A stretch of DNA of 64,000 nucleotides, taken from positions 62,001 through 126,000 of the forward strand of contig CACBYE010000001.1 of assembly GCA_902543375.1 (NCBI GenBank), in the 5' to 3' direction. The notes below the pieces were generated by a model, which was not told the origin of the DNA, ran no database searches, and was given only the letters and a program-made list of their open reading frames with translations. This DNA is from an uncultured Pelagibacteraceae bacterium. GTDB taxonomy: Bacteria > Pseudomonadota > Alphaproteobacteria > Pelagibacterales > Pelagibacteraceae. Both the position numbers and the translations under genes were made by a program. Positions within the stretch are counted from its first letter, which is position 1, and every line of letters starts with the position of its first letter. This document shows positions 26,851 to 27,383 of this stretch, in pieces.

Positions 26851-27030
26851 TTATTTTTTAAAACAATTATTTACTAAGATTGCCATTAAAATCCACATCA
26901 CAAAAACTTCACCATTTGTAAAAGAATAATCCGCTCCAGCAAAACCAGCGGCAAAATTTATTGCATAAATAATTATTGTCGAAATAACCAAACTTATGAC
27001 AAGATTTATAAGCCCACTTACATAGTTCAT
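26851..27030 (-). CDS. 59-aa small membrane protein
   Basis: MNYVSGLINLVISLVISTIIIYAINFAAGFAGADYSFTNGEVFVMWILMAILVNNCFKK read from the complement. Not in ORF track. Confidence 0.6.
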   Translation of the reverse strand: MNYVSGLINLVISLVISTIIIYAINFAAGFAGADYSFTNGEVFVMWILMAILVNNCFKK

Positions 27031-27124
27031 AATTTTATCTTAGCCAGAATTAATATTAATGCAAATTATATTTCTATTCTAAATTGAATTTTTTTATGAA
27101 AGCTGAATACTACAAACCAGTCAG

Positions 27125-27179
27125 GTTGTATTCAAGAAATATATTTTATTTAAACTAAAATTAATTACTTGAATACAAC
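27125..27179. repeat. 12-bp perfect inverted repeat
   Basis: GTTGTATTCAAG (27125-27136) and CTTGAATACAAC (27168-27179). Confidence 0.85.
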
Positions 27180-27323
27180 TTAACTAAAATTTAATCTTTT
27201 TTACATAAGGAGGTAGTTTCTATGAATAAAATGCCACCTGATACTTAGCTGGCAAACTTAATGTTTCATAAAAACGAAAACGATAAAAATAAAAGTCTAA
27301 TTAGACTTGAGTGCCAAAAAAGC

Positions 27324-27373
27324 GATTAAGGGATGCTTTTTTGGTTGGACAACCAAAAAGCAAACCCTTAGTC
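27324..27373. terminator. Long imperfect hairpin, possible terminator for the convergent minus-strand gene
   Basis: GATTAAGGG..GCTTTTTTGGTTG / CAACCAAAAAGC..CCCTTAGTC; minus-strand copy followed by CGCTTTTTT. Confidence 0.65.
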
Positions 27374-27383
27374 AATTTTAAAG

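Follow-up and report, generated by a model that had tools for sequence, protein, structure and literature searches.

What is encoded in the spacer between a divergent gene for a predicted 59-aa small membrane protein (26851-27030, minus strand) and a convergent gene for a cytochrome c' (PF01322; 27384-27839, minus strand) in the window, i.e., the whole stretch of 64,000 nucleotides of SAR11 DNA analyzed here? SAR11 bacteria are among the most abundant in the ocean and have stripped-down genomes with few known regulators. The first-pass annotation of this DNA had noted in the spacer a 12-bp inverted repeat, a strong Shine-Dalgarno (SD) sequence in front of an ATG at 27222, the reading MNKMPPDT-TAG followed by an open frame to a TAA ending at 27329, a perfect 16-bp palindrome, and a long hairpin, and had offered three readings, i.e., a structured small RNA (sRNA), a leader-peptide attenuator, or a short gene with stop codon readthrough. 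By reading the sequence directly, we found all of these features at the coordinates given for them. The inverted repeat is perfect (GTTGTATTCAAG at 27125-27136 and CTTGAATACAAC at 27168-27179); the SD sequence, AAGGAGGT, is at 27207-27214 on the plus strand; the micro-ORF (27222-27248, plus strand) starts with the ATG at 27222 and ends with the TAG at 27246-27248; the frame past the TAG reads LANLMFHKNENDKNKSLIRLECQKSD and remains open for 26 codons until the TAA at 27327-27329; the palindrome is AAGTCTAATTAGACTT at 27293-27308; and the long hairpin lies within about 27328-27372.

Plain BLAST aligned the spacer as DNA in about 23 genomes of the same genus. A first covariance model, which was built from 16 copies, matched 149 of 398 genomes of the order, with a single copy in each, in genera g1, g7, and g8, and a second model added a fourth genus, g5. 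When the second model was applied with strict filters to a sample of 289 genomes from the class, we identified no match beyond the family. Similarly, a pattern consisting of the SD sequence, a gap, and CCNCCTGAYACTTAGC occurred on >119 contigs in a species-level genome collection, and among the 80 contigs listed, all are from Pelagibacteraceae/Pelagibacterales; the micro-ORF pattern had no exact match in 2.9 million viral contigs. Copies are present in genomes G106, G012, and G107, which we take to be HTCC1062 (762687-762862, minus strand), HIMB5 (794988-795151), and HTCC7211 (673873-674034, minus strand), respectively. At least 20 same-genus genomes with a completeness of 93-99% lack the RNA, both when less strict filters are applied and as judged from the micro-ORF pattern. 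In two further SAR11 genomes, decayed copies (L216, 4988-5139, and L231, 1501-1654, both on the minus strand) are still adjacent to the same upstream gene, while the promoter box and the intact ORF are gone, showing loss in progress. Because it is absent from near-complete genomes and decayed in these two, the RNA is evidently dispensable.

The region from 27205 to 27380 is predicted to fold with −45.1 kcal/mol (z = −4.69), and none of 200 dinucleotide shuffles folded as well. Based on the covariance model matches and compensatory pairs, we place the small-RNA gene at about 27205-27372 on the plus strand (~168 nt), and the predicted RNAs of the family are about 165-175 nt long. From 5' to 3', they comprise the SD sequence, the micro-ORF, an A-rich linker, hairpins, and a terminal hairpin. 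In 60 copies aligned to the model, 97.4% of the cells were paired compared with 39-59% in slid controls, and compensatory double changes were present in 17 of 27 pairs, a count that none of 500 shuffles equaled. This alignment is fitted to the structure, and an unguided MAFFT alignment, in which 13 of 24 pairs had double changes, provides the fairer count. The helices best supported by these comparisons are H2 (AAGTCC..GGACTT), which corresponds to the palindrome at 27293-27308 in the window (AAGTCT and AGACTT around AATT) and has compensatory double changes in all five modeled pairs, and the terminal hairpin H4/H5 (27328-27369), which has an asymmetric internal loop and double changes in 8 of 13 pairs. 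H4 and H5 probably form the 3' end of the RNA, adjoining the convergent gene; a terminator scan identified no canonical intrinsic terminator. Between H2 and H4/H5, the covariance alignment supports a small hairpin, H3 (27313-27323), which is GCC..GGC in most relatives and weakened to GC..GC in the window copy.

A further helix, H1 (27208-27238), pairs the SD sequence (AGGaGG, 27208-27213) with the two Pro codons of the micro-ORF (CCaCCT) and leaves the ATG in the loop. In most of the lineages tested, the minimum-energy fold contains H1 wholly or partly; the helix is compensatory in L024/G034, and a clade that has lost one Pro codon (LPDT) re-forms the helix as GUCAGG/CCUGAC. H1 is nevertheless only moderately supported because CCNCCN near GGAGG pairs almost automatically. 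We also considered a conserved hairpin directly 3' of the stop codon; this was rejected as a general feature based on a mean z of −0.34 in 56 representatives, although such a hairpin is present in some deep branches.

With regard to the micro-ORF, GGAGG is invariant in intact copies, and an in-frame ATG follows it after 3-11 nt in all 144 loci first collected; the pattern used for the genome scan left the ATG and the phase free. The 134 distinct RNAs encode 33 peptides, nearly all of the form M-x(1-5)-PPDT-stop (e.g., MNQMPPDT, MLILSPPDT, MLRITPPDT, MLKLSPPDT, and MKTPPDT), and the HTCC1062 copy encodes MNLSPPDT with a TAA stop. Thus, the N-terminal residues and the length of the ORF vary, while the C-terminal end and the position of the stop codon are constant. 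In the most distant genera, the peptides are MSPPET, with TGA, and MSPPEI, with TAA, the latter in addition to the 33 peptides, and a single clade carries MLKLPDT with one Pro. Few amino acids are replaced at the conserved positions: D is exchanged for E in MSPPET and MSPPEI, I takes the place of T, and one clade has L instead of P. Because the counting pattern required P-(D/E or other GAN codon)-T, the counts for the conserved residues are partly so by construction; the plain DNA search, the phase-free scan, and the model matches support the ORF independently of that pattern. The codons vary synonymously (CCA/CCG, CCT/CCA, GAT/GAC, and ACT/ACA), and the stop codon is TAG, TAA, or TGA across relatives and is never lost in intact copies. 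Together, these patterns of substitution show that the micro-ORF, which has 6-10 codons, is under selection to end in Pro-Pro-(Asp/Glu)-x-stop, and its translation is well supported by the sequence comparison. ORFs with <10 translated codons escape annotation, and this one is among the shortest conserved protein-coding messages known to us.

The same comparison bears on the suggestion that the locus is a short gene in which readthrough of the TAG would give a 35-residue protein. In the window and the relatives nearest to it, the 26 open codons past the TAG are what such a gene would require; in other lineages, however, in-frame stops or frame-shifting indels close or break the frame, and the next in-frame stop comes anywhere from 2 to 60 codons past the micro-ORF stop. 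Codon conservation on each side of the TAG, a check named in the first-pass annotation, is found before the stop and not after it. Because the frame after the TAG is not conserved, and with the stop codon interchanging among TAG, TAA, and TGA, we rejected readthrough, to which we assign practically no probability.

The conservation of the exact C-terminus and stop position, with the N-terminal residues free to vary, would also be expected if the product were the released micropeptide of 6-10 residues, with its C-terminal PP(D/E)(T/I) recognized by a protein or the ribosome and the hairpins only stabilizing the mRNA. However, the conserved motif comprises only four residues and tolerates E for D, I for T, and L for P, and the 3' structure has undergone extensive compensatory change beyond the needs of a plain mRNA tail. 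We therefore consider it unlikely that the peptide itself is the product.

With its SD sequence, micro-ORF, and hairpins, the locus has a leader-like anatomy, and a short, apparently translated ORF followed by structured RNA is what an attenuator would have. However, the gene downstream is convergent in 122 of 123 unique loci, which leaves these loci with no regulated same-strand gene directly downstream. Moreover, the downstream neighbors are many and unrelated, including cytochrome c', a methyltransferase-like protein, FolD, and transporters (identified by eye except for cytochrome c' and b561). A leader peptide or attenuator acting on the downstream gene is, therefore, very improbable, and the reading as an attenuator did not hold. 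Rather, the convergent orientation and the variety of neighbors argue that the RNA is free-standing and not a cis leader. On the other side, the conserved 59-aa membrane protein, which begins with MNYVSGLINLVISLVISTIIIYA and matches no Pfam family above the cut-off, adjoins the RNA gene in many SAR11 loci and lies apart from it in others.

The region upstream of the RNA gene contains a dyad with the halves AGGTTGTATTCAA and TTGAATACAACCT. The right half includes CTTGAATACAAC (27168-27179, plus strand) with a −35 element, TTGAAT, at 27169-27174, and is followed after 17 nt by a −10 element, TAATCT (27192-27197, plus strand), which was recognized from the sequence and the aligned relatives. The positions of these two elements place the predicted start of the RNA near 27203-27206, about 3 nt before the SD sequence, and we infer that the RNA is transcribed from this dyad promoter. 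The left half, AGGTTGTATTCAAG (27107-27136), is conserved and reads on the minus strand as a −35 element, TTGAAT (27135-27130), a 17-nt spacer, and a −10 element, TAGTAT (27112-27107), with the hexamers assigned by eye. It is kept in 143 of 147 unique upstream regions, including those in which the upstream gene is not divergent, and may possibly be the promoter of the divergent 59-aa gene and/or an upstream element of the RNA promoter. The spacing to the right half is fixed, with a start-to-start distance of exactly 43 nt in 85 of the 86 loci that keep both half-sites. According to this layout, the 12-bp inverted repeat does not form a hairpin in the transcript; it represents the −35 part of the promoter region, which is symmetric and lies upstream of the predicted RNA start. 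The region from 27107 to 27179 as a whole looks like a putative regulator-binding dyad with divergent promoters; it is symmetric, and its half-sites at 43 nt are separated by about four helical turns. We also considered whether the 10-bp promoter box TTGTATTCAA defines a regulon. Because this box occurs 4 times in its own genome, with 2 of these occurrences at this locus, compared with 5 times for the reversed control, it is not enriched, and this idea was rejected.

Altogether, the comparisons show what reads as a free-standing SAR11 small-RNA gene with a conserved promoter, covarying 3' hairpins, and no conserved gene in cis. The features expected of a free-standing sRNA, i.e., its own promoter, a 3' end, a conserved structure, and a location outside genes, are all present, with the promoter and the 3' end read from the sequence. 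Of the three original readings, that of a structured sRNA is thus strongly supported by the promoter, the free-standing position, and the covarying structure. For SAR11, such an investment in regulation is rare: the small RNA has been kept in many lineages from four or more genera, together with an ultra-short conserved ORF and a promoter region whose geometry is fixed.

In Rfam 15, no family matched the copies from the window, HTCC1062, HIMB5, or HTCC7211 at the gathering threshold. Weak matches to microRNA-like families scored below the gathering score, are located on the promoter dyad, and were dismissed as chance. No tRNA or tmRNA was detected in the 64-kb window; we rejected a tmRNA based on this result, the lack of an Rfam match, and the presence of an ORF with an SD sequence and an ATG. 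The HTCC1062 copy lies inside a spacer (762678-763012) tabulated by Meyer et al. 2009 with 76 BLAST hits, which is below their 200-hit screen, and no RNA was assigned to it (PMC2704228). The 'Ca. P. ubique' candidates of that study (rhtB, pntA, babIM, and SAR11_0636) are likewise SAR11-restricted conserved intergenic RNAs; the SAR11_0636 element, which was also suggested to be free-standing like the RNA described here, is at 622388-622552 and, therefore, at a different locus (PMC2704228). For HIMB5 spacers, Stav et al. 2019 report uORFs, one sRNA, and three or more sORFs, and the main-text sections searched do not describe the HIMB5 copy; the spacer may be included in the supplementary list of that paper (PMC6429828). 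Similarly, the main texts searched among marine metatranscriptome papers do not mention the locus, and we found no description of a PP(D/E)x micro-ORF in the main texts searched. The novelty of the locus as such is uncertain.

How, then, might a free-standing RNA make use of so short an ORF? The best explanation, to which we assign a probability of about one in two, is that ribosome pausing at PP(D/E) near the 5' end couples the structure or stability of the RNA to the state of translation. The RNA would be made from the dyad promoter, and a ribosome would load efficiently at its extreme 5' end, opening H1, and pause once the first few peptide bonds have formed, when Pro-Pro occupies the P site and Asp/Glu the A site, i.e., at the codon preceding the last sense codon. 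This parked ribosome, slow to terminate or dropping off, would shield the 5' end of the RNA, the stability and folding of which would then track the translation state (EF-P activity, charging of Pro- and Asp-tRNA, and ionic conditions), and the hairpin domain would act in trans by pairing or protein binding.

The proposed pausing has parallels in other systems. In E. coli ribosome profiling, PPD appeared exclusively in the set of PPX sites that pause, and the same table of EF-P-dependent pauses also lists PPE sites (PMC4140641). Moreover, short nascent chains that contain proline tend to drop off, which EF-P suppresses (PMC8934632), and early Pro/acidic motifs destabilize ribosomes in the MgtL leader (PMC11282234). 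Like an arrest peptide, the micro-ORF has selected codons for residues expected to slow peptide-bond formation (PPD/PPE, and LPD in one clade), and the D-to-E replacement retains a known pausing motif. A gene for EF-P is present in six of six SAR11 genomes (G000, G106, G107, G012, G101, and G108). Against pausing, the LPDT clade with its single Pro would be expected to pause less, and neither the conserved residue after D/E nor the stop position is needed for a PPD pause alone; against a role of H1, its pairing is partly automatic.

Hfq (PF17209) was not detected in the same six genomes, while a Caulobacter control was positive, and this makes the usual Hfq-dependent pairing in trans unlikely. 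This result weighs against a dual-function sRNA that acts by base pairing, with a minor, non-pausing micro-ORF and with the 3' loops or the conserved ACUUAGCUGG pairing with target mRNAs. The free-standing position, the single copy, the conserved promoter, and the CTG/CTGG kept after the stop in most copies all fit such an sRNA. However, the loops and the linker are mostly variable and A-rich, and the strongest conservation is in the SD sequence and PP(D/E), and we regard this explanation as improbable. Known dual-function sRNAs, such as SgrS/SgrT, SR1/SR1P, and Spot 42, encode longer peptides that act as proteins. The SAR11 RNA resembles them as an independent small transcript that has a small ORF and is structured in its 3' part, and differs from them in that its peptide is conserved only at PP(D/E)x and in the lack of detectable Hfq in the six genomes.

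The SD sequence itself could be what matters if an abundant short RNA with a perfect SD sequence served as a decoy that captures ribosomes or 30S subunits and throttles translation globally. Indeed, AAGGAGGT at 27207 is its sole copy on the plus strand of the 64-kb window, 52 of 68 ORFs of ≥100 aa in the window, with start codons uncurated, have no SD match of ≥4 nt, and the promoter is conserved. Nevertheless, a decoy would need neither a PPDT-stop that tolerates synonymous changes nor covarying 3' hairpins, and H1 can sequester the SD sequence, which makes a decoy a poor candidate.

Returning to ribosome pausing, stall modules are known mainly as cis leaders. MgtL-type arrest/leader peptides of enterobacteria (EPDP, intrinsic ribosome destabilization) share with the SAR11 micro-ORF a very short ORF with Pro and acidic residues in the first 10 codons, and in both cases translation would be expected to alter RNA folding. 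Unlike these leaders, the SAR11 RNA has no downstream gene in cis, is free-standing, and has its own 3' hairpin, and its ORF has only 6-10 codons with a conserved stop right after PP(D/E)x. We tentatively suggest, as a possibility that we favor less than pausing itself, that the RNA is a free RNA with a minimal ribosome-pausing gene as its switch, in which a perfect SD sequence followed within 6-10 codons by PP(D/E)-x-stop would allow a trans-acting RNA to read out EF-P/translation status. If the pause is real, then an RNA that lacks a target in cis can harbor a stalling minigene, and the role of a stalled ribosome on a free RNA becomes directly testable.

Two further observations concern the end of the micro-ORF. 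CTGG or CTGA follows the stop codon directly in 129 of the 134 copies (27249-27252 in the window) and is missing in genera g5 and g7. Finally, ACT-TAG has changed jointly to ACA-TAA in two or more distinct groups of peptides, MNLS.. and MIKLT.. (L225, L211, L217, and L218), which possibly reflects a linked constraint at the RNA level.
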